From: Gemmatimonadaceae bacterium
Lineage (GTDB): Bacteria > Gemmatimonadota > Gemmatimonadetes > Gemmatimonadales > Gemmatimonadaceae
DNA: 56,708 nucleotides
Assembly: GCA_017881585.1 (NCBI GenBank)
Contig: JADGQS010000005.1
Coordinates: forward strand, 1 to 56,708
Direction of reading: 5' to 3'
The position numbers and the translations under genes are program-made. The stretch's first letter is position 1. Every line of letters begins with the position of its first letter. Of this stretch, positions 34,921-47,556 are shown one piece after another. The notes under the pieces were generated by a model. It was not told the DNA's origin. It did no database searches and worked only from the letters and a program-made list of their open reading frames with translations.

Positions 34921-35004
34921 TTTTCCGGGTGAACGCGCGGCCCCGGACGGGCGCACGGCGCGAGAGGAAGGTTGTGACGCGAAACGACCAAAGTCAACAA
35001 AACA

Positions 35005-35299
35005 GCGATGAGATCTGAGTACGAGTCGGAGGGATGAGTTGGAGAAAGTAGATGCGAGTTTGAGAGCGAGGGTGAGAGGGAGTTCAGTGGGAGTGGGAAC
35101 TCAGTGGGAGTGGGAGCTCAGCGGGAATCCAGTGCGCGAGCAAGTCTCTACGGTCGACGCCCACTTCGCGCCCATTCCCACTGTGTTCCCACTCCCACTT
35201 TGCTCCCACTTGGACTCATGCTCCCCGCTCGAACGCCCACTCAAACTCAGATCTACTTTCTCCAACTCATCCCTCCGACTCGTACTCAGATCTCATCGC
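35005..35299. repeat. Long inverted-repeat element 1 (hairpin) upstream of truA
   Basis: Bases 35005-35053 and 35251-35299 are perfect 49-base inverted repeats. Inside, a purine-rich GTGGGAGTGGGA side (about 35085-35120) faces a pyrimidine-rich TTCCCACTCCCAC side (about 35173-35210), which extends pairing imperfectly. A 33-base core (35256-35288, inverted at 35016-35048) recurs unchanged at 47478-47510. The element fills most of the 415-base gap between the GAF gene and truA, and I see no gene in it. It might be a structured RNA, a MITE-like relic or a protein-binding site. Confidence 0.85.
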
Positions 35300-35328
35300 T
35301 TGAAGTAGTGCGTGCGCGCGGCTACTTT
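35300..35328 (+). promoter_or_regulatory. Promoter of the truA-purF operon
   Basis: TTGAAG (35300-35305), a 17-base spacer and TACTTT (35323-35328) lie 7 bases before the second of two adjacent ATG codons (35336). There is no Shine-Dalgarno, so a leaderless mRNA is likely. The -35 begins immediately after the right arm of the inverted-repeat element. Confidence 0.6.
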
Positions 35329-35335
35329 TCCCATG

Positions 35336-36124
35336 ATGGCGGGACGTACCCTGCAGCTCGTTTTGCACTACGATGGCAGCGACTTCGCCGGCTGGCAGGT
35401 CCAACCGGCGCAGCGAACGGTGCAAGGCGTGCTCGAGGCGGCACTTTCCCGATTGTGTGACGAACCGGTGCGCGTGACGGGCGCCGGACGGACGGATGCC
35501 GGGGTGCATGCGCGCGGCCAGGTGGCCGGCGTCGAGGTGCCCGGGCATTGGACGGCGGAGCGGCTGCGCAACGCGGTCAACAGCCAGCTCCCCGGCGACG
35601 TCTGGGTGGCGCGGGCGTTGGAGATGAAGCCCGGCTTTCACGCCCGTTACAGCGCGACCGGACGTCGCTACAGCTACGCGGTGGGGCTCGATGAGGCAAC
35701 GCACTCTCCTTTTCGCCGGCGGTGGGAATACGCCTGGACGAAGGCGGACCGGGCCCTCAGCCGCGAAGCGCTCGACTGGTGTGCAGAGCGGACGATGGGT
35801 CAGCATCGGTTCTTCGGATTCGCGGTGCGCGGAACGGCGCCCGCGACGGACGATCACCGGTGCGATGTGCGGTGCTGCCATTGGCGCGATTCGCCGGAAC
35901 ACGGCGGGCTCGTGCTCGACATCGAAGCGAACCGGTTCCTGCATCACATGGTGCGCTTTCTCGTCGGCACGATGCTCGACGTGGCGAGTGGCCGACGGCC
36001 GCGCGAGGAGTATGAAGCGCTCCTCGTCGCGGCGGCGAACGACGAAGTCTCGCCGCCGGCACCGCCCCAGGGACTGTGTCTCGAGCAAGTCACCTACCCC
36101 GACGACCTCTACTTCACCGCCTGA
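35336..36124 (+). CDS. truA: tRNA pseudouridine(38-40) synthase TruA
   Basis: 262 residues. The catalytic Asp is in VTGAGRTDAGVHARGQ (about residue 53). Other landmarks are LHYDGSDFAGWQ at the N-terminus, YSYAVG, and ANRFLHHMVRFLVGTMLDV. Tandem ATG codons occur at 35333 and 35336; I use the second because of its 7-base distance from the -10 box. TruA modifies tRNA anticodon stems. It heads the long operon that includes the purine genes. Confidence 0.93.
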   Translation: MAGRTLQLVLHYDGSDFAGWQVQPAQRTVQGVLEAALSRLCDEPVRVTGAGRTDAGVHARGQVAGVEVPGHWTAERLRNAVNSQLPGDVWVARALEMKPGFHARYSATGRRYSYAVGLDEATHSPFRRRWEYAWTKADRALSREALDWCAERTMGQHRFFGFAVRGTAPATDDHRCDVRCCHWRDSPEHGGLVLDIEANRFLHHMVRFLVGTMLDVASGRRPREEYEALLVAAANDEVSPPAPPQGLCLEQVTYPDDLYFTA

Positions 36125-36146
36125 GAACCGAGCGACCCACCACACG

Positions 36147-36812
36147 ATGCGCATCTTCCTCGCCACCACGTCGCTCGACGAAATTCGTTGGGCCACCGCT
36201 GCCTCGCTGATCGACGGCGTGGTCGCGACGCCCACGATCATCGCGACGGAACTTCCCACCGCGGACGCCCGCGACGTGGTCACGGAGATTGCGCGCGCAA
36301 CGAAACTTCCGGTCTGCGCGAGCGTTCCGGCGATCGGCGCGAACGACATCTACAAGGGCGCGCGCGACCTGGCGAAGTCGGTGGACCACCTGATCGTCGC
36401 CGTGCCCTTCATCGAGGACGCGGTTCCCGCCATCAGGAAACTCGCCAACGACGGCGTGCGGGTCGCGGCCACCCTCATCTACTCGAGCGCGCAGGGCATC
36501 CTCGCGGCAAAGGCCGGCGCGTCGATGATCACCATCGCGATCGACACGCTGGAATCCGTCGGACAGAGCGGACCGGACCTGATCTACGAGCTTCGCGCGG
36601 CCTTCGACCACGCGGCCACGGAATGCGACATCGCGGCGGCCGGACCCTCGACCGCGTCGAGTTTCGCGGCGTGTGCCGCGGCTGGTGCGGACGTGGCGAT
36701 CGTCACGCCCGGCGTGCTGCGCGCGCTCCTCCAGCATCCGCTCACCGATCGCGGCCTCGATCGTTTCCTCGGCGACATCAGCCGCCGCCCCAAGCCGCGC
36801 CGCGCGAAATGA
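36147..36812 (+). CDS. Transaldolase/fructose-6-phosphate aldolase-fold protein lacking the catalytic lysine
   Basis: 221 residues, the size of TalC/FSA, and alignable by eye with Escherichia coli FSA along its whole length. FSA residues Asp6, Asn28 and Lys85 (the Schiff-base lysine in VVKVP) are replaced here by Ala6, Thr28 and Ala85 (LIVAVP). The barrel core is well kept: IDGVVATPTIIA, VRVAATLIYSSAQGILAAKAGA, ESVGQSG, GADVAIVTPGVLRALLQHPLTDRGLDRF. It cannot use the known aldolase mechanism, so it is a pseudoenzyme or has another activity. It lies 22 bases after truA and overlaps the htrA start. Confidence 0.75.
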   Translation: MRIFLATTSLDEIRWATAASLIDGVVATPTIIATELPTADARDVVTEIARATKLPVCASVPAIGANDIYKGARDLAKSVDHLIVAVPFIEDAVPAIRKLANDGVRVAATLIYSSAQGILAAKAGASMITIAIDTLESVGQSGPDLIYELRAAFDHAATECDIAAAGPSTASSFAACAAAGADVAIVTPGVLRALLQHPLTDRGLDRFLGDISRRPKPRRAK

Positions 36813-38215
36813 GATTCCGGCCCCTGATCCTCGCCGTCGCTCTCCCCGCGCTCGTTGCGTGCGAGGGAGCCGTGCCCTCTTCGTCGAGCGCGCAGACGCT
36901 GCGCGCGCCGGCCACCCAATCCGCGGCCATCAGCAGCCAGCGCCGGAACGCCATCACCGACGCCGTGCAAAAGGTCGCGCCGTCGGTCGTGACGGTGCAG
37001 ACCGAGGTGATCCAGCGGGTCGCCGCTTCGCCGGCGGACTTCTTCTTCGGCACGCAGAGCGGCCAGCAGGTGCAGGCCGGCATCGGATCGGGCTTCATCG
37101 TCCGGGAAGACGGCGTGATCGTCACCAACGCGCACGTCGTCAGCGGCGCGACGAAGATCAGCGTTGCGCTGCGCGACGGCACGTCGTACCCCGCGAAGCT
37201 GGTCGGCATCGACGAGCAGAACGATCTCGCCGTCCTCAAGATCGACGCGAAGAAGCTGCCGGTCGCCGCGCTGGGCACCTCGCGCGACCTGCTCATCGGC
37301 GAGTGGGCCATCGCCATCGGAAATCCGTTCGGCTTCATCCTGGGGAACACGGAGCCGAGCGTCACCGCAGGCGTGATCAGTGCGACCGGACGAAACCTCA
37401 CGGCGCGCGGCGAGGGTCAGGGCGTCTATGTGGACATGATCCAGACCGACGCCGCGATCAATCCCGGCAACTCCGGCGGCCCGCTCGTGAACTCACTCGG
37501 CGAAGTCGTCGGCGTCAACAGTTCGATCTATTCGCCGAGCGGCGGCAGCGTCGGCCTGGGGTTCGCCATTCCCATCGACCGGGCGCGGCGCGTGACGGAC
37601 GACCTGCTGCTGCACGGCAAGGTTCGCAAGCCGTGGATCGGCGTGAAGATGGAGTACCCGCAGCAGACGGCGCTCACGCGCGATGCGCTGAACTCCGGCG
37701 CGCCGATCCATGAAGTGGTGCCGGGATCACCAGCGGCCGAGGCCGGCCTGCTCGCGGGCGACGTGCTCGTGCGCGCGAGCAACCGGGTGGTCAAGAACGC
37801 CTACGACTGGGACGCCGCGCTGCTCGAGTTGCACGTCGATGACGGCGTCCCGCTGGTGGTGCGCCGCTCCGGCCGGGAGATCCAGTCGCGGGTGAAGGTG
37901 GCCGACTTCCCCGAGGTCAATGCGCAGCGCGTGGCCGTCCTCAAGGAACTCGAGCTGATCTCGCTGACGCCCGCGATTCGCGCGGAGCGCAACATCAAGA
38001 ACGCCCAGGGCGCCCTCATCGCGACGGTCTCACAGACCGTCTCAAACAGCCTCGGGATCCAGGCGGGCGACGTGATCGTGCAGATCAACAACACCCCCGT
38101 CTCCGACGCACAGCAGGTGAAGCGCGTGCTCGAATCGCTCTCGGGAAAGGGTCAGTCCCGGATGATCTTCGAGCGCGGCGGCCGGATGCTCTACACCGAC
38201 TTCTCGATCAGATGA
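36809..38215 (+). CDS. HtrA/Deg-type serine protease lipoprotein
   Basis: 468 residues from the ATG at 36809 (ATGA overlap). A lipoprotein signal ends LPALVAC (Cys18), so the protease is probably tethered to the periplasmic face of a membrane. The catalytic triad is His in VIVTNAHVV, Asp in [10 protein letters not shown] and Ser in [10 protein letters not shown]. Two PDZ domains follow (about 285-370, with [17 protein letters not shown]; and about 375-465, with [17 protein letters not shown]). It degrades or refolds misfolded envelope proteins. It is coupled to purB, which is not a functional link I can explain. Confidence 0.9.
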
Positions 38216-39645
38216 CACACGACCGGTACAACTCGCCGCTCGCAGAGCGTTACGCCTCGGCGGCGATGCTGTCGCTCTGGTCGTCGCAGACGCGCCACGG
38301 TCTCTGGCGGCGCCTCTGGGTGGCGCTCGCCGAAGCCGAACGCGACCTCGGCGCGGACATTCCCGCGGCCGCGATCGCCGAGATGAAGCAGCATCTCGAC
38401 GACATCGACTTTGTGAAGGTCGCCGAGTACGAGAAGCGCTTCCGCCACGACGTGATGGCGCACGTGCACGCGTTCGGCGAGGCCGCCCCGGCCGCGCGCG
38501 GCGTGATTCATCTGGGCGCCACGAGCGCGTACGTCACGGACAACTCCGACCTGATCCAGATGCATCGCGGGCTCGGGCTGCTGCGCTCACGCGTGATCTC
38601 GGTGCTGCGGACACTGGCCGCGTTCGCGTCGAAGTGGAAGGCGGAGCCGACGCTCGGATACACGCATTTGCAGCCGGCGCAGCTCACCACGGTCGGCAAG
38701 CGCGCGACGCTCTGGATGCAGGATCTCGTCCTCGACCTCGCGGACCTCGACGTCCGCCTTGCGACCCTCCCGCTGCGCGGCGTGAAGGGGACGACCGGCA
38801 CGCAGGCGAGCTTCCTCGAGCTGTTCAAGGGCGATCACGAGAAGGTGCGCGAACTCGACCGCCGGGTCACGCAGGCGATGGGCTTCCAGAGTTCCCTTCC
38901 CGTCACCGGCCAGACGTATTCGCGAAAGATCGACGCGCAGGTGCTCGGCGTGGTCGCGGGCATCGCGGCGAGCGCGGCGAAGTTCGCGAGCGACATGCGC
39001 ATGCTGCAGGCATTCGGCGAGATCGAAGAGCCGTTCGAGAAGGAACAGATCGGATCGAGCGCGATGGCGTACAAGCGAAACCCCATGCGTTCCGAGCGCA
39101 TCAACTCGCTTTCGCGATTCGTGCTGTCGCTCGAGCCGAACGCCAACCAGACGCACAGCGTGCAGTTCTTCGAGCGCACGCTCGACGACAGCGCAAACCG
39201 GCGTCTCGCGATCCCGGAAGCGTTCCTGGCGACGGACGCCGTGCTGATCCTCATGGAGAACATCGCCGCGGGTCTCGAGGTGCATCCGGCGCGCATTCGC
39301 GCCCGGATCGCCGACGAGCTTCCGTTCATGGCCACCGAGGCGCTCATCCTGCGCGCCGTGGAGGCTGGCGGCGACCGCCAGCAGGCGCACGAAGTGATCC
39401 GCACGCACAGCATCGCGGCGGCGCGCGCCATGAAGGACGACGGTGCGAAGAACGACATGCTCGATCGCCTCGCGAAGGACGAGGCCTTCGGGGTTCCGGT
39501 GCACGACCTGCACGCGGTCGCCGATCCGTCGCGATTCATCGGGCGCGCGGCGCGACAGGTCGACGATTTCCTCGCCGAAGTGATCCATCCAATCCTGCAC
39601 CGCGCCGGGAGCGATCCCCATGCGCGCGAAGAGGTTCGTGTATGA
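38212..39645 (+). CDS. purB: Adenylosuccinate lyase
   Basis: 477 residues. The fumarase/aspartase signature is [16 protein letters not shown] (SSxMPxKxNxxxxE type; Pro is replaced by Ala). [16 protein letters not shown] and [14 protein letters not shown] hold the substrate-binding and catalytic residues. It acts twice in purine synthesis, on SAICAR and adenylosuccinate. Overlaps htrA and purC by 4 bases each. Confidence 0.95.
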
Positions 39646-40568
39646 CGGTTGTCGTCGGCCTGACGGAGTTGCCGCTCGAGCGGGTGCGCCGCGGCAAGGT
39701 GCGCGATGTGTACGCCGTCGATGACGGCCGCCTGCTGCTCGTCGCGAGCGATCGCGTGAGCGCGTTCGACGTGGTGATGAACGAGCTGGTGCCCCACAAG
39801 GGCGCGGTGCTGACGCAGATCACCGCGTGGTGGCTGCGGCAGTTCGAGGGTGACCTCGCGCATCACATGCTCAGCGCGGACGCCGGCGAGATCGTGAACG
39901 AGGTCCCCGCGCTCGCGCCGCATCGCGCGATGCTGGAGGGACGCGCGATGCTATGCCGCCGCACGGAAGTCTTCCCGGTGGAATGCGTTGTGCGCGGCTA
40001 CATCTCGGGATCGGCCTGGAAGGAGTACAAGGCTTCCGGCACGCTCGCCGGAGAGAAGCTGCCGCCGGGCATGGTGGAGAGCGACCGCTTTGCCACGCCG
40101 GTGTTCAGTCCCGCGACGAAAGCCGAGACCGGGCACGACGAGAACATCACCATCGCGCAGATGCGAAAGGAACTTGGGCCGGCGACCGCCGCGGAGCTCG
40201 AGCGCCTGAGCCGTCACGTGTACTCGCGCGGCCGCGACATCGCGGCAACGCGCGGCATCATCATCGCGGACACGAAGTTCGAATTCGGTCACGTCGGCGG
40301 GAAGATCATTCTGATCGACGAAGTGCTCACCCCCGACAGCTCGCGATTCTGGCCGGCGGACCAGTACGAGCCGGGGAAGACGCAGCCGAGCTTCGACAAG
40401 CAGCCGCTGCGCGACTGGCTCGAGGCGGAGAAGAAGGCCGGGCGCTGGGACGGCAACGCGCCGCCACCCGTCCTGCCGGACGAGGTGGTCACGGAGACGA
40501 GCCGCCGCTATCTCAACGCGTTCGAGCGGATCACCGGTGCGCCGCTCGCGATCGCAGGAGCCGAATGA
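39642..40568 (+). CDS. purC: Phosphoribosylaminoimidazole-succinocarboxamide synthase
   Basis: 308 residues from the ATG at 39642, which overlaps the purB stop. It has [27 protein letters not shown] at the N-terminus, [17 protein letters not shown], and IADTKFEFG with [14 protein letters not shown], all SAICAR synthetase signatures. It is the longer, single-domain form of about 300 residues. Its product is the substrate of PurB, encoded just upstream. Confidence 0.95.
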
Positions 40569-41212
40569 ACGTCGCCCGCGAAGGCATTCCGTTCATCCTG
40601 ATCGCCACGGCGCTCGCCGTGGGAACGTTCGGGCTGGCGCTCATGCGGCGGTCATGGCCGCTCTGGCTGCTCGCCTTCCTGCTGACGATCATCGCGCTCT
40701 GGGTCGCCTGGTTCTTCCGGGATCCCGAGCGCATGGGAGAGCGCGGTGAGAGACTCGTGATCGCGCCGGCCGACGGCCGGATCGTGATGATCGCCGATGT
40801 GGACGAGCCATCGTTCGTGCACGGCAAGGCGACGCGCATCTCGATCTTCATGAACATTTTCAACGTGCACGTGAATCGCTATCCGGTGAACGGGACCGTT
40901 CGCTACGTGCACTACAACCCCGGCAAGTTCATCAACGCCGCGGCCGACAAGGCGAGCCTCGACAACGAACAGATGTCCGTTGGCCTCGACTCCGGCGGAA
41001 GGCTCGTGCTCGTGCGGCAGATCGCTGGTGCGATCGCCAGGCGAATCGTGACCTACAGCAAGGAGGGCGACACGGCCCGGCAGGGTGAACGCTTCGGCCT
41101 CATCCGGTTCGGATCGCGCGTGGACGTGTTCGTCCCCACCAACAGCAAAGTGCGCGTGAAGGTCGGCGAGAAACCGGTGGCGGGAACCACGGTGTTGGCG
41201 GAGCTGCCCTGA
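40565..41212 (+). CDS. psd: Phosphatidylserine decarboxylase (short, archaetidylserine-like type)
   Basis: 215 residues. Two hydrophobic helices near the N-terminus ([40 protein letters not shown]) anchor it. The core has [24 protein letters not shown] and the self-cleavage site [14 protein letters not shown], where Ser becomes the pyruvoyl group. It makes phosphatidylethanolamine from the product of PssA, encoded directly downstream. Overlaps purC by 4 bases. Confidence 0.93.
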
Positions 41213-42108
41213 TGCGGCGCCCGCGCCTCCCGCGCCCCTCGATGGTGATGCTGCCCAACGGCTTCACCCTCATGAGCCTGTTCTTCGGGGTGTACGCCAT
41301 CGTCTTGGCGTCGCGCGGCGATCATGCGCGCGCGGTGTGGTACATCATCGCCGCCTCCGTGTGCGACGCGATCGATGGGCGCGTGGCCCGCGCGACCCAC
41401 ACGGGAAGCAAGTTCGGCGAGGAACTCGATTCGCTGGTGGACGCCATCTCGTTCGGGTTCGCGCCGGCGATGATGATGTACTTCGCCGTCCTCAGGAAGG
41501 ACGGGCTCGACTGGATCTTCGTATTCCTCTTCGCTGCGTGCGCGGTGATGCGGCTCGCGCGCTTCAACGTCGAGCAGGCCGGCCGCGCGAAGACGCACTT
41601 CCACGGCCTTCCGAGCCCCGTCGCCGGCGGCGTGCTCGCGACCTACTTCTGGTTCAGCCAGACGCCGCTCTACAACGAGACCGTCATCGGCGACCTGCCA
41701 TGGCACACCATGGTGCTGTTCCTCATGGCGGGCCTCTCGTTCCTGATGATCAGCAACGTTCCGTATCCGGCGATGCCGACGTTCAGCATCAAGACGCTGC
41801 GCGGCGTGCTGGGGCTGACGGTGTTCATCGGGCTGATCTTCGGGCTGGTCTTCCTGCCGAAGGATTTCTTCTTCCCCGTCGGCATGCTCTACGTGACCTG
41901 GGGAGTCGTCGCGTCGGTGGTGAAGGGCCTTCTCGACCGGCCGCAGTACGCCGAGGGCCAAACAGCCGCCGATGACGAAAGCCTCTTCGACCAAGAGAAC
42001 GACGATTCCCTGCCGGGCGACGACGCGCTGAGGCGCAAGCGTCGTCGCCGATTCCGCGGTCCGCGGCACAAGCCTGAGCGCACACCCCCAGAGGAACCCA
42101 CCGCATGA
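41212..42108 (+). CDS. pssA: CDP-diacylglycerol-serine O-phosphatidyltransferase
   Basis: 298 residues. The CDP-alcohol phosphotransferase motif DGx2ARx8Gx3Dx3D is fully present as DGRVARATHTGSKFGEELDS plus LVD (about residues 54-76). Six to eight hydrophobic segments follow. The last 45 residues are an acidic then strongly basic tail (DDALRRKRRRRFRGPRHKPE), beyond the usual enzyme, and may bind acidic lipids. With psd it forms the PE pathway inside the purine operon. Confidence 0.93.
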   Translation: MRRPRLPRPSMVMLPNGFTLMSLFFGVYAIVLASRGDHARAVWYIIAASVCDAIDGRVARATHTGSKFGEELDSLVDAISFGFAPAMMMYFAVLRKDGLDWIFVFLFAACAVMRLARFNVEQAGRAKTHFHGLPSPVAGGVLATYFWFSQTPLYNETVIGDLPWHTMVLFLMAGLSFLMISNVPYPAMPTFSIKTLRGVLGLTVFIGLIFGLVFLPKDFFFPVGMLYVTWGVVASVVKGLLDRPQYAEGQTAADDESLFDQENDDSLPGDDALRRKRRRRFRGPRHKPERTPPEEPTA

Positions 42109-42362
42109 CGCGGTTTCGAGTCTCCGTTCATATCATCCCGCGCCGCGGCCTGCTCGACCCTCAGGGGAAGGCGGTCACGGACGCACTCCACACGCTCGGA
42201 TTTGCCGGCGTCGGCGAAGTGCACGTCGGCCGCCATCTGGTGATCGAAACTGGCGCGAAAGATATCGCCGCGGCCGAGGCGAGCGTGCGCACGATGTGCG
42301 AGCGGTTGCTCGCGAATCCCGTCACCGAAGATTTCGAGATCGCCGGAGTCGTGAAAGAATGA
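42105..42362 (+). CDS. purS: Phosphoribosylformylglycinamidine synthase subunit PurS
   Basis: 85 residues, typical length. VSVHIIPRRGLLDPQGKAVTDALHTLGF is the PurS opening, and MCERLLANPVTEDFEI its end. It bridges PurL and PurQ in the three-part FGAM synthase and helps ammonia pass between them. Overlaps pssA and purQ by 4 bases. Confidence 0.95.
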   Translation: MTRFRVSVHIIPRRGLLDPQGKAVTDALHTLGFAGVGEVHVGRHLVIETGAKDIAAAEASVRTMCERLLANPVTEDFEIAGVVKE

Positions 42363-43048
42363 AGGTCGGCATCGTCCGGTTTCCCGGCTCCAACTGCGAA
42401 GACGACGCGTTCCACGCCGTCGTCGACCAGCTCGGCGAAGAGGCCGTCATGCTCTGGCACAAGGACCACGACCTGCAGGGCAGCGACGTCGTGATCCTTC
42501 CCGGGGGCTTCTCCTACGGCGACTACCTGCGCGCCGGTGCGATCGCGCGTTTCAGTCCCATCATGCGTGAGGTCGCCCTCCACGCCGCGAAGGGCGGCAT
42601 CGTGCTCGGTATCTGTAATGGATTCCAGATCGCGTGCGAAGCCGGCCTGTTGCCGGGCGCGCTGCTTCGCAACGACGCCGGCTATCGCTCGATGCCCGTG
42701 ACCATCCGGGTCGAGCACACCGACACCGCCTTCACGTCGGCGGCAACAGTTGGACAGTGTCTCACGATGCCCATCGCGCACGGCGAGGGACGATTTGCCG
42801 CCGGCGAGGATGTGCTGGATCAGCTCGAGAACGACGCCCAGGTGCTTTTCCGGTACGTCGATGCCGCCGGAGAGGCCACTGTGGACGCGAACCCGAATGG
42901 CGCCATGCGCAACATCGCGGGCGTGTGCAATGCCGCCCGCAACGTGATTGGCCTCATGCCCCATCCTGAACGTGCCGTCGATCCGCTGCTCGGTTCCGAG
43001 GACGGGCTCGTCCTGTTCGAATCGCTGCTCGTTGCCGCTCACGCCTGA
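42359..43048 (+). CDS. purQ: Phosphoribosylformylglycinamidine synthase subunit PurQ (glutaminase)
   Basis: 229 residues from the ATG at 42359. Class I amidotransferase triad: nucleophile Cys in VLGICNGFQIACE (about residue 87), with His and Glu in GLMPHPERAVDP. VRFPGSNCEDDAF and LPGGFSYGDYLRAGAIA are conserved PurQ blocks. It supplies ammonia to PurL. The stop is followed by a 13-base gap, the largest in the central pur run, and then the BamE-like gene. Confidence 0.95.
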   Translation: MKVGIVRFPGSNCEDDAFHAVVDQLGEEAVMLWHKDHDLQGSDVVILPGGFSYGDYLRAGAIARFSPIMREVALHAAKGGIVLGICNGFQIACEAGLLPGALLRNDAGYRSMPVTIRVEHTDTAFTSAATVGQCLTMPIAHGEGRFAAGEDVLDQLENDAQVLFRYVDAAGEATVDANPNGAMRNIAGVCNAARNVIGLMPHPERAVDPLLGSEDGLVLFESLLVAAHA

Positions 43049-43061
43049 CCGGAGATCGTTC

Positions 43062-43589
43062 ATGCGCAACTTCACACGCCTTGCACTTCTAATGGTTGCT
43101 GTCGCAGGCAGCGCGAGCGCGCAAGCTTCAATCGATCGCGGGATGACCAGGGATCAAGTGGTCGCCAGGCTCGGGAAGCCCACATCGGAACACTCGAGTG
43201 GCTCGGCGACCTTCCTCTACTACAAGAATGGTCAAGAGAAGAAGATGGGGATGAGCGACATGGTCGCGCTCGACAGCGGGAAGGTCGTCGACGCCGTGTT
43301 CCGCTCGAGCGCGCGGAGGTACACCGGGAGGAGTTCATCGCCTGCGCCTGTGTCGGCCGAGGCGGCGATCGCAAAGGGGAATGGCGGCAGGGTGCCGGTA
43401 AGGAAGGCTGCGCCTCCGGTGAAGAAGCCCGCGGCGCCGGCGAAACCCGCGGCTCCCGTCAAGGCCGCGCCCCCCGCCAAGAAGCTCTCAGAACCCAAGA
43501 AGAGCATCGATACGAAGAAGATCCAGGCGCCAACGAAGGTCCCCGATACCACCAAGAAGGCCGCACCCGCACCCGCCAAGAAACCTTGA
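43062..43589 (+). CDS. Secreted BamE/SmpA-like protein with Lys/Pro/Ala-rich tail
   Basis: 175 residues from the ATG at 43062, with a clear GGAGAT ribosome site. A signal peptide ([21 protein letters not shown]) is followed by a SmpA/BamE-like domain: [18 protein letters not shown] and [13 protein letters not shown] (about 22-85). The remaining half is low-complexity Lys, Pro and Ala ([18 protein letters not shown]), suited to binding anionic polymers or spanning the periplasm. It has no lipobox, unlike BamE. It is inserted between purQ and purL and overlaps purL by 4 bases. Confidence 0.7.
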
Positions 43590-45892
43590 CCCCTACTCCC
43601 CGCCCCGGCGATCCCACGATCACGCCGGCACTCGTTGCCGAGCATGGGCTCACGCGGGACGAGTACGATCGCTTGGTGAACATGCTGGGCCGCACGCCGA
43701 CCTTCACGGAACTCGGCATCGTGAGCGCGCTGTGGAGCGAGCACTGCTCGTACAAACATTCGCGGCCCCTGCTCAGGAAACTCCCGACCTCGGCGCCGTA
43801 CGTGCTGCAGGGTCCCGGTGAGAACGCCGGCGTGATCTCGATCGGTGACGGACTCGCCGTGGCGTTCAAGATCGAGTCGCACAACCATCCGTCCGCCGTC
43901 GAGCCGTATCAGGGCGCGGCCACCGGCGTCGGCGGCATTCTCCGTGACGTCTTCACCATGGGCGCGCGACCGATCGCGATGCTCAACTCGCTGCGCTTCG
44001 GTTCGCTCGACTCGCCGCGCGTTCGATACCTGGTGGCCGGCGTCGTTCGCGGCATCGGCGACTACGGCAACTGCATGGGCGTCCCTACCGTGGCCGGCGA
44101 CGTGATGTTCGACGCGGCCTACGAGGGAAATCCGCTCGTGAACGCGATGTGCGTGGGAATCCTCCGCGAGGACGAACTCATCCGCGCGAAGGCCCAGGGC
44201 ATCGGCAACGCGATCATGGCGGTCGGTGCGCGCACGGGCCGCGACGGCATTCACGGCGCGTCGTTCGCGTCGGAAGATCTCTCGCACAACAGCGACGCCA
44301 AGCGGCCGCGGGTGCAGGTCGGCGACCCGTTCACGGAGAAGCTGCTGCTCGAGGCGACACTCGAGCTGATCGCGTCGGGACACGTTGTGGCCGTGCAGGA
44401 CATGGGCGCCGCCGGACTCACGTCGTCGAGCGCCGAGATGGCCGAGCGCGGCGACGTCGGCGTCACGATCGACACGCTGAAGGTGCCCGTGCGCGAATCC
44501 GGCATGACGCCGTACGAGATCCTCCTCAGCGAGTCGCAGGAGCGCATGCTCGTCGTCGCGATCAAGGGCCGCGAGGACAAGGTCCGCGAGATCCTGGCGA
44601 AATGGGATCTCACCGCGGCGGTGATCGGCGAAGTGATCGCCGAGCCGGTGTACCGCGTGACGGAAGGTGATCGCGTGGTCGCGGAGTTCCCCGGCACGCG
44701 GCTCGTCACCGACTGCCCGCAATACCATCCCGACGCCCGCGAAAGCGACGCGATCATCGCACTGCGCGCCCGTGACGTCCACGCCGTGCCGCCGCTGCCG
44801 CAGGAACGGAACTCCGCGTGGACGCTGCGGCGCCTCCTCGAGTCGCCCACGATCGCGAGCAAGCGCTGGCTCTACCGCCAGTACGATTCCACGGTTCGCA
44901 CCAACACCGTCATCGGACCCGGCAGCGGTGATGCGGCGGTGCTGCGCATCCGCGGCACGAAGAAGGGACTCGCAATGAAGACCGACTGCAACGGGCGCTA
45001 CGTCTATCTCGACCCGCGCGTCGGCGGCCGCATCGCGGTGGCGGAAGCCGCCCGCAACGTCGCGTGCGTCGGTGCGAGGCCGATGGCGATCACGAACTGC
45101 CTGAACTTCGGCAACCCGACCCGTCCCGACATCTTCTTCCAGTTCCGCGAGGCGCTCGCCGGAATGGCCGAAGCGTGCGTGGCGCTCCGGACGCCCGTCA
45201 CGGGCGGCAACGTCTCGCTCTACAATGAAAGCCCGGCGGGCGCCGTGTATCCGACGCCGACCATCGGCATGGTCGGGCTCCTCGAGGACGTCTCGCGCGC
45301 GACGGCGATGGAGTTCCGTGAGCCCGAAGACGCGATCATCCTGCTCGGAGATCCGACGGACGAACTCGGCGCGAGCGAATACCTCGCCTGGATCCACGGG
45401 GTCGTCGCCGGCGCGCCGCCGGCCTGCGATCTCACCCGCGAGCGCGCGCTCGTCGAGACGCTCCTCGAGAGCATCAACGCCAGGCTCGTGCATTCCGCGC
45501 ATGACTGCAGCGAGGGCGGCTTTGCGGTCGCGATCGCGGAATGCTGCATCGGCAATCCGCTCGCGCTGCACGGTGCGATGGTCGATCTCTCGGCCTGGAA
45601 GGCGATTCCCTCGCGTGCGCTGCTGTTCGGCGAAGCGCAGGGCCGCGCGATCGTCTCGACCAGCGATGCCGCCGCCGTCCTCGCGATCGCCAGGAGGCGG
45701 GGCGTGCCCGCCCGCAACATCGGCACGGTCAAGCCGCCGAACGAAGGACTCGTGATCGTCGTCGCCGGACACAGCATGCGGTCTCCACTGATGGACCTGG
45801 TCGCCGCATACCACGACGCGATTCCGCGGGCGATGCAGCGCGCGCCCGCCGAGCAGGTGTCGGTCGACCTCGCAACCGGAGCACCGGCCTGA
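43586..45892 (+). CDS. purL: Phosphoribosylformylglycinamidine synthase subunit PurL (small type)
   Basis: 768 residues from a TTG that overlaps the upstream stop (TTGA); no better start is seen. It is the PurS/PurQ-dependent form. Conserved blocks include [74 protein letters not shown] and [11 protein letters not shown]. It uses ATP and ammonia from PurQ to make FGAM. Confidence 0.95.
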
Positions 45893-47262
45893 TGTGCGGC
45901 GTATTTGGAGTCAGCGGCAACGCATCGGCGGCGGAACTCGTCCACCTCGGACTGTATTCGCTGCAGCATCGCGGGCAGGAATCGGCCGGCATCGTCGCCG
46001 TGCGCGACGGCGAAGCACACGGCCTGCGCGCGATGGGACTCGTCGGCGAGAAGTTCGGTCCCGATGCCATTAAGGGACTGCAGGGCTCGACCGCCATCGG
46101 GCACACGCGATATTCGACCGCCGGCTCGTCCACGCTCGAGAACGCGCAACCTGCCCTGGTGAACTTCAAGGGCGGCCACATCGCCCTCGCGCACAACGGC
46201 AATCTCGTCAACGCCCCCGAAGTCCGCGTGCAGCTCGAGGCCGCCGGCTCGATCTTCAGTTCGACGATGGATTCCGAGGTGATCGTCCATCGCCTCGCGC
46301 GTTCCGGCGCGACGAAGCCGGAGGAACAGCTGGCCGAGGCGCTGCAGGGACTCGAGGGCGCGTACTCCCTGCTGGTGCTGATCAACGACACGCTGCTCGC
46401 CGCCCGCGACCCCAACGGCTGGCGCCCGCTCGTCATGGGAAAGCTCGGCGACGCGACTGTATTCGCGTCGGAGACGTGCGCGCTCGACATCGTCGGCGCC
46501 ACACTCGTGCGCGAAGTGCTTCCGGGCGAGATCATCGCCGTGGACAAGAACGGAATGCGCACGCTGGAGCTGGGCGCGGCACCCGTGCTGCACCGCTGCG
46601 TGTTCGAGCACGTGTACTTCGCGCGCCCCGACAGCAGTGTGTTCGGCGGCTCGGTGGATCGCGCGCGCCGCGCACTCGGCCGGCGTCTCGCCGTCGAGCA
46701 TCCTGCGCCCAACGCCGATCTGGTCTTCGCTGTTCCCGATTCGGCGAACGCCGCGGCGCTTGGCTTTTCGGAGGAGAGCGGCCTCCCGCTCGAGCACGCG
46801 CTGATTCGCAACCACTATGTGGGGCGCACCTTCATCCAGCCGACGCAGGCCGGGCGCGATGCGAAGGTGAAAGTGAAGTACAACCCGGTGCGCGAGATTC
46901 TTCGCGGCAAGAGCGTCGTGATGGTCGATGACTCGATCGTCCGGGGCACCACGACGCGCGGCATCGTCGCGCTCGTGCGCGCCGCCGGCGCCCGCGAGGT
47001 GCACATGCGTGTCTCGAGCCCGCCGATCACGGGCCCGTGCTGGTACGGCATCGACACGCCCGACAAGTCGCAGCTCATTGCGGCGAACCTGACTCTCGCG
47101 CAAATCGCCGAGAAGATCGGAGTCGATTCTCTCGGATACATCTCGCTCGACGGCATGCTCGGCGCCGTTCCGGGCGGCCCGACGGGGTTCTGCCATGCAT
47201 GCTTCTCGGGCGACTATCCGACGCGCGCGCCGAGCGTGATTGCCAAGAACCGCATGGGCTGA
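45892..47262 (+). CDS. purF: Amidophosphoribosyltransferase
   Basis: 456 residues. It begins MCGVFG, so the catalytic Cys2 is exposed after Met removal and there is no propeptide of the Bacillus kind. Cysteines in HRCVFEHVYFARPDS, GPCWYGID and GFCHACFSG match the four [4Fe-4S] ligands of the Bacillus-type enzyme. The PRPP loop is VMVDDSIVRGTTT. It commits PRPP to purine synthesis. Last gene of the operon; overlaps purL by one base. Confidence 0.96.
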   Translation: MCGVFGVSGNASAAELVHLGLYSLQHRGQESAGIVAVRDGEAHGLRAMGLVGEKFGPDAIKGLQGSTAIGHTRYSTAGSSTLENAQPALVNFKGGHIALAHNGNLVNAPEVRVQLEAAGSIFSSTMDSEVIVHRLARSGATKPEEQLAEALQGLEGAYSLLVLINDTLLAARDPNGWRPLVMGKLGDATVFASETCALDIVGATLVREVLPGEIIAVDKNGMRTLELGAAPVLHRCVFEHVYFARPDSSVFGGSVDRARRALGRRLAVEHPAPNADLVFAVPDSANAAALGFSEESGLPLEHALIRNHYVGRTFIQPTQAGRDAKVKVKYNPVREILRGKSVVMVDDSIVRGTTTRGIVALVRAAGAREVHMRVSSPPITGPCWYGIDTPDKSQLIAANLTLAQIAEKIGVDSLGYISLDGMLGAVPGGPTGFCHACFSGDYPTRAPSVIAKNRMG

Positions 47263-47280
47263 GTTGTTGAACGGCGGAGT

Positions 47281-47515
47281 CGGCACTGAGAGTGGGAGAA
47301 CGAGTCAGTGGGATGAGCGTGAGCGAACTCGAGTGGTGGGAGTGGGAGTTCGAGGATGCTCATGCGCAGGTTGAATCGCCGAGGAGGCCGCGACCGCCAC
47401 ACACTTCCTCCTCAACTCCCACCCGACTCCCACTCCCACTCGACTCCCACTCACCCTCGCTCTCAGACTCCGCTCTTCTTTCTCCAACTCATCCCTCCGA
47501 CTCGTACTCAACCCT
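47281..47515. repeat. Inverted-repeat element 2, degenerate relative of element 1
   Basis: Contains the 33-base core of element 1 unchanged (47478-47510). Upstream of it, about 25 more bases (TCACCCTCGCTCTCA and flank) match the reverse complement of 35054-35076. Purine-rich GAGTGGTGGGAGTGGGAG (about 47331-47348) faces pyrimidine-rich CCCACTCCCACTCGACTCCCAC (about 47429-47450), so it can still fold, but the long perfect arms are lost. It fills most of the 294-base gap between purF and the sortilin-like gene; no other gene is visible there. Confidence 0.75.
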
Positions 47516-47556
47516 CGTCGTTCTCTGCAGTCCCCCGCAGAAAGGAGATCGTCCTC

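Follow-up and report, generated by a model that had tools for sequence, protein, structure and literature searches.

REPINs are paired, inverted short sequences that lie between genes, are non-autonomous and genome-specific, have a GTAG motif next to each REP hairpin, and are matched by a gene, RAYT, for a Y1 tyrosine transposase; miniature inverted-repeat transposable elements (MITEs) of DDE transposons are likewise short, non-coding inverted-repeat derivatives of a gene-bearing element. Here we compare these and other systems with two hairpin-forming repeats, elements 1 and 2, found at either end of the truA-purF operon in a 56,708-nt stretch of a Gemmatimonadaceae genome (GenBank assembly GCA_017881585.1, contig JADGQS010000005.1; the whole stretch is hereafter "the window"). 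We read both, at a probability of about three in four, as "solo" copies, lacking an open reading frame (ORF), of a hairpin element that is widespread and is represented here by a subfamily specific to the genus. In its complete form this element is a long quasi-palindrome with arms made of short-period repeats, a G-rich 5′ arm, and a gene of the IVP/S23 family (Pfam PF05635, 23S_rRNA_IVP) in its loop.

The intervening sequence (IVS) of the Coxiella burnetii 23S rRNA gene is a stem-loop with an S23p ORF and tandem heptamers upstream of that ORF, and has been called selfish (PMC4990558). IVP ORFs occupy several insertion sites in 16S and 23S rRNA genes of the Candidate Phyla Radiation (PMC11270868), 18 IVP genes have been reported in cas loci (PMC3936711), and IVP appears among CRISPR adaptation associations (PMC10910872). 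The Avd protein of diversity-generating retroelements is likely homologous to PF05635 (PMC10053308). Intergenic heptamer repeats have their own literature: GGGAATC in Xanthomonas and GGGGA(C/T)T in Nostoc, with 70 and 75 convergent inverted pairs in two Xanthomonas genomes, were treated as G-quadruplex formers generally unassociated with mobile elements (PMC4692102), and others are described from Geobacter (PMC2700814) and Beggiatoaceae (PMC4679880). The Xanthomonas and Nostoc arrays resemble the present ones in being G-rich heptamers, whereas the excerpted text makes no mention of S23/IVP genes; Xanthomonas campestris has a structurally solved IVP (XCC0516, PDB 2GSC). A term search of the Beggiatoaceae paper found neither S23 nor intervening sequence. 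Among the papers listed in our searches of the open-access literature, none connected IVP/S23 genes with dispersed repeat hairpins, which does not prove that such a link is absent from print.

The best reading of the window repeats is as miniature members of this IVP hairpin element, akin to the 23S rRNA IVS and analogous to REPIN/RAYT. As in the IVS, terminal inverted repeats form a stem, and in ORF-bearing members an S23p/IVP ORF occupies the loop, which in the window copies (about 30–60 nt) holds no trace of an ORF. RNase III removes an IVS from the transcript. Unlike the IVS, the present elements lie between protein genes rather than inside a 23S rRNA gene, come as families of solos, and carry arms built as arrays of 6–7-nt repeats. 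Element 1 is a quasi-palindrome that spans 297 bp (35004-35300) and pairs perfectly over its 50 terminal positions, so that the 49-base arms given in the sequence-only reading (a model's earlier annotation of these letters) hold when counted from 35005/35299; its 77-nt arms are 88% complementary. Element 2 (47281-47519) shares with it an identical 33-base core, the reverse complement of which is found in element 1's left arm, and both have a G-rich 5′ half and a C-rich 3′ half, so the common core and purine/pyrimidine layout described earlier were confirmed by sequence comparison.

The source genome (G000; 3.09 Mb, 240 contigs, 90% complete) contains eight ORF-less copies, namely the two in the window and those designated C194, C126, C156, C134, C171, and C38, plus one ORF-bearing copy (C151). 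A BLAST search with element 1 as query detected related copies in 6 of 61 genomes, each of them a member of the genus, and the pattern GAGTGGGAGTGGGAG, with one mismatch allowed, added G007 and G012, bringing the carriers of GTGGGAG hairpins to 8 of 18 genus genomes (G000, G002, G007, G011, G012, G014, G016, and G017). The pattern matched 5–76 times in these eight (0–3 for a backwards-read control) and 0–1 times in the other ten (control, 0–4). Arm variants vary from genome to genome, and the polarity has exceptions, the left halves of C134 and C171 not being clearly G-rich. Homogenization of the two arms within a copy was considered and set aside as weak: own arms matched at 0.67 vs. 0.61 with other copies of the same genome, and the own arm was the best partner in only 8 of 16 cases. 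A period scan of the window reported no array; since neither element 1 nor element 2 passes its threshold, the scan is uninformative on further copies. The sequence-only reading had named relics of a non-autonomous mobile element among its options and proposed a copy search in the genome and its relatives. Further copies were found in both, so that its own condition for refutation, a lack of other copies and of conservation, fails.

In some copies the arms are separated by a gene, of the same family in G000, G014, G002, and G007. All four ORFs between arms matched PF05635 (49.9–57.4 bits; cut-off, 33.8), which was their only Pfam match, and no known catalytic domain was present; the best PDB match was the X. 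campestris structure 2GSC (E 2.5e-8 for one of the four proteins). A profile of the four sequences, applied to 31 genomes at ≥90 bits, recovered this IVP subfamily in G000 (4), G002 (3), G007 (3), G011 (4), G012 (2), G014 (4), G016 (2), and G017 (1). Within the genus these are exactly the eight hairpin genomes, and the other ten reach 36 bits at most. Pairwise dN/dS (the ratio of non-synonymous to synonymous substitution rates) between IVP ORFs was 0.04–0.17 (YN00; several pairs with saturated dS), from which the ORFs are judged to be under purifying selection, a difference from the Coxiella IVS as described in PMC4990558. By eye, a GGTGATG-like motif stands some 40–60 nt upstream of IVP starts, between arm and ORF, at four loci (L109, L116, L212, and L217).

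Arms of ORF-bearing copies mostly matched the solos of their own genome best. Seven ORF-bearing copies have GTGGGAG-type arms, six of them scorable against solos of the same genome, and five scored best there, the exception being C151 of G000 (no G011 solos were included, and no GTGGGAG-type ORF-bearing copy was found in G012). Mean local scores against own-genome solos were 199 for G014 (other genomes, ≤85), 143 for G007, 130 for G016, 107 for G002, and 86 for G017, each being the row maximum; the nine IVP elements whose arms are of a different type scored 17–44 against the solos. Loops of 12 solos were also compared with six ORF-bearing interiors, using 100 shuffles each. One loop (L106) scored above all shuffles, L105 tied with the best shuffle, and L104 had p 0.01; the matching letters in L105 and L106 were arm repeats and the other nine loops gave p 0.2–0.89, so that IVP remnants in solo loops were rejected.

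The architecture extends far beyond the genus. PF05635 is present in 49 of 61 relatives, from which 30 IVP loci were fetched and 26 could be tested (four were dropped for short flanks). Inverted flanking arms scoring >31 were found at 22 of these, made of locus-specific short repeats; the threshold is the 95th percentile of mispaired controls, chosen because some controls above 200 inflate the 99th. A second set comprised 80 named loci, the best of 563 in a genome_contigs scan, 77 of them testable (three with short flanks dropped) and at least three (L226, L234, and L244) the same places as loci in the relatives' set. Here the inverted-arm score had a median of 41, vs. 19 in mispaired (p 4e-38) and 20 in displaced controls (p 3e-27), and was ≥36 at 51 of 77 loci as against 8/616 mispaired and 1/142 displaced. 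Both flanks had a best period of 7 at 62 of 77 loci (15 of 147 single control windows, 10%); G-richness marked 53 of 58 upstream arrays and was lacking from 45 of 48 downstream ones. Arms with period 6, as in the window subfamily, are a variant of this usual period 7. By record labels, the loci belong to Acidobacteriota, Gemmatimonadota, Proteobacteria, Planctomycetes, Cyanobacteria, Chloroflexi, Bacteroidetes, Verrucomicrobia, and others.

Gene-less pairs accompany the gene-bearing form outside the genus too. Rhodopseudomonas rhenobacensis (G062) has GCGAATA heptamers as one pair around an IVP gene, six short gene-less pairs, and four unpaired arrays; elsewhere the heptamer pattern occurs in nine stretches of a Xanthobacteraceae metagenome-assembled genome (MAG; G063) without an IVP match and in one G061 pair that encloses an IVP. 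By eye, two solo heptamer hairpins (L344, R. rhenobacensis C2; L357, G063 C263) stand directly after a stop codon at seemingly the same accB-accC junction, which suggests that certain sites may persist for long. A search with a single alphaproteobacterial IVP matched 28 of 72,556 plasmid records, at least 22 of them cyanobacterial, and none of 50,697 phage records; a phage vehicle was therefore rejected.

Orthologous sites differ even between close relatives. The hairpin of element 1 is absent from six relatives in which the neighboring genes align (G002, G014, G016, G006, G008, and G007); in G011, about 95% identical to G000, it is present but inverted, the two copies being 96.6% identical when one is inverted and 76% when compared directly, between flanks that are 99% and 97% identical. 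The site of element 2 has only a stub in G011 and nothing in G002, with genes aligned on both sides; at the same site in G014 (C18:84000-86700, L141) about 2 kb of other sequence lies between purF and the next gene. Other ORF-less copies of G000 are altered (C194 and C134), reduced to stubs (C126 and C171), or cleanly absent (C156) in G011, and the C171 solo site has an ORF-bearing copy in G002, a stub in G011, and nothing in G014. A second inversion relative to flanks appears to separate G007 C255 from G012 C40 (interior 86% identical when inverted, flanks 81% direct). An IVP element stands next to accD in six genomes. Its gene points at accD in two of them (G000 and G002) and in the opposite direction in the other four (G014, G007, G016, and G017), reflecting either inversion or separate insertion. 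Together with the copy number and the ORF-bearing form, this presence, absence, and inversion supports the mobile-element option of the sequence-only reading.

The same comparison bears on the earlier proposal of boundary elements. Two elements at both ends of one operon would suit an operon-boundary or chromosome-organizing role, and their placement was described correctly: element 1 separates truA, whose promoter-like box it abuts, from a divergently oriented GAF-domain gene (− strand), and element 2 begins about 20 nt past the purF stop, before a sortilin/BNR-repeat gene. The relatives that were read keep the aligned flanking genes without the hairpins, so the bracketing looks incidental, and we rejected the boundary role as extremely unlikely. 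Boxes similar to that of truA are present, by eye, at element-free sites of relatives.

Host-maintained function at the RNA level was weighed as well, the hairpins then being functional RNAs or elements for termination or processing (as RNase III targets or as mRNA ends) and IVP their binding protein. As the sequence-only reading proposed, the transcripts were folded: element 1 gave a minimum free energy of −206.8 kcal/mol, far outside its shuffles (z −20.6), and element 2 a weaker hairpin (z −3.7). The stability of element 1, the position of some elements, read by eye, directly after stop codons, and the sites seemingly common to different alphaproteobacteria (L344 and L357) all suit such a function. 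Against it, the genes on either side of element 1 diverge, relatives 95% identical differ by gains and losses of copies, and the window has no Rfam match at gathering thresholds, by which a known Rfam RNA was rejected. A structured RNA, as suggested earlier, would be possible at the transcript level, and we consider host-kept RNA elements improbable.

Palindromic, multicopy, non-coding repeats, intergenic where read, might instead be mobilized, in the manner of REPINs or MITEs, by a classical transposase (Y1/RAYT or DDE) encoded elsewhere in the genome. The present hairpins are indeed, like REPINs, paired, inverted, intergenic, non-autonomous, and genome-specific, with a matching gene, and the solos share with MITEs their short, inverted-repeat, non-coding form. 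However, the gene found between matching arms is IVP rather than a transposase and lies inside the hairpin, and none of the 12 genus genomes searched, which included four hairpin carriers, G000 (90% complete) among them, had a match to Y1_Tnp (PF01797), so that RAYT/Y1 was rejected. The gene-bearing relatives found with shared arms carry IVP; DDE families were not searched genome-wide. MITEs have a target-site duplication of fixed length. The sequence-only reading had proposed to look for such duplications, and no consistent one was seen: by eye there was none at element 1, C126, or C194. At C156 (L106), comparison with G011 (L308) and G014 (L115) showed a possible 8–9-nt duplication (GCCC-TGAC / GCCCGTGAC), of which G011 has one copy. 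A classical transposase is accordingly very unlikely. Reverse transcriptase acting in trans was also rejected: unlike diversity-generating retroelements, seven of the eight hairpin-bearing genus genomes (G000, G002, G007, G011, G012, G014, and G016) have none, the only match being G017 C66:712-1053.

Several observations weigh against the IVP hairpin reading. G022, G023, and G033, outside the genus, also reach ≥90 bits and lack GTGGGAG hairpins; the concordance of IVP and hairpins within the genus is not independent of phylogeny; and by eye, different arms flank both IVP copies found in G012 (83% complete) and the majority of the subfamily's remaining copies. C151 fits its own solos weakly (58, below the 70 of G007), and the G002 copy fits the G000 solos better (95). 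Solo loops retain no clear IVP remnant. Among the 77 labeled loci, 26 score <36 and 15 do not have a best period of 7 in both flanks, and the scan patterns favor one IVP clade. Most genomes are MAGs, in which inversion between short inverted repeats could partly be assembly error. The lack of a consistent target-site duplication counts here too, and transposition was not directly observed.

Short-period repeats slip, and long palindromes usually yield stubs and inversions. The solos could have spread through errors of a general kind in replication or recombination, such as the copying of palindromes, template switching, or slippage at short repeats, with IVP as cargo or a host gene without a role in mobility. 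The stubs and inversions observed are such usual outcomes, and an ORF whose sole Pfam match is PF05635, with no known catalytic domain, fits a passenger gene. Against this stand the arms of the same polarity and period that frame most IVP genes tested across many phyla, the co-occurrence of the IVP subfamily with its hairpins in the genus, and the purifying selection on the ORF, and we consider this reading unlikely.

Under the IVP hairpin reading, IVP would recognize the repeat stem, as DNA or RNA, and would help the element copy to new intergenic sites using host enzymes; it is in this sense that we infer IVP to be the driver of spread. Solo hairpins would lose the ORF and then spread in trans, later shrinking to stubs or flipping because long palindromes are unstable; stub deletion and flipping would need nothing beyond that instability. 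The elements around the truA-purF operon would be passengers. The interpretation offered by the sequence-only reading is thus partly supported. Coordinates of the window features are collected in Table 1.

Table 1. Parts of the two hairpin elements and the adjoining promoter-like box, in window coordinates.
Feature	Position	Strand	Remark
Element 1, left outer arm	35004..35053		Pairs perfectly with 35251-35300 over 50 nt
Element 1, left inner arm	35054..35129		GTGGGAG-rich strand; GAGNNN period-6
Element 1, asymmetric loop	35130..35160		Orientation reveals the inversion in G011
Element 1, right inner arm	35161..35250		TCCCAC-rich strand
Element 1, right outer arm	35251..35300		Contains the 33-base core, 35256-35288
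truA promoter-like box TTGAAG-N17-TACTTT	35300..35328	+	Abuts element 1; promoter read by eye
Element 2, left G-rich arm	47281..47349		Lacks the outer ~30 nt of the family arm (by-eye comparison with right arm)
Element 2, loop	47350..47412		IVP ORF remnant undetectable (p 0.2)
Element 2, right C-rich arm	47413..47519		33-base core, 47478-47510; only a ~22-nt stub of the outer end in G011

S23/IVP is a common protein family, and at the loci tested, across many phyla, its genes are mostly framed by repeat-armed hairpins, with gene-less hairpins of matching arms scattered in the same genomes where these were looked for. We tentatively suggest, as an idea still more doubtful than secure, that IVP/S23 proteins may be the mobility proteins of bacteria-wide elements free of transposase and reverse transcriptase, in which a four-helix bundle would read the short-period stem and cause the hairpin, whether or not the gene is inside it, to be copied into further sites. 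Where such a site is a 23S rRNA gene, the element would be what is known as the IVS, and many intergenic heptamer repeats that lack an explanation would then be solo copies. The finding links three puzzles, namely rRNA intervening sequences, intergenic heptamer repeats, and the role of S23/IVP/Avd-like bundles, and raises the directly testable question of whether IVP mobilizes hairpins.

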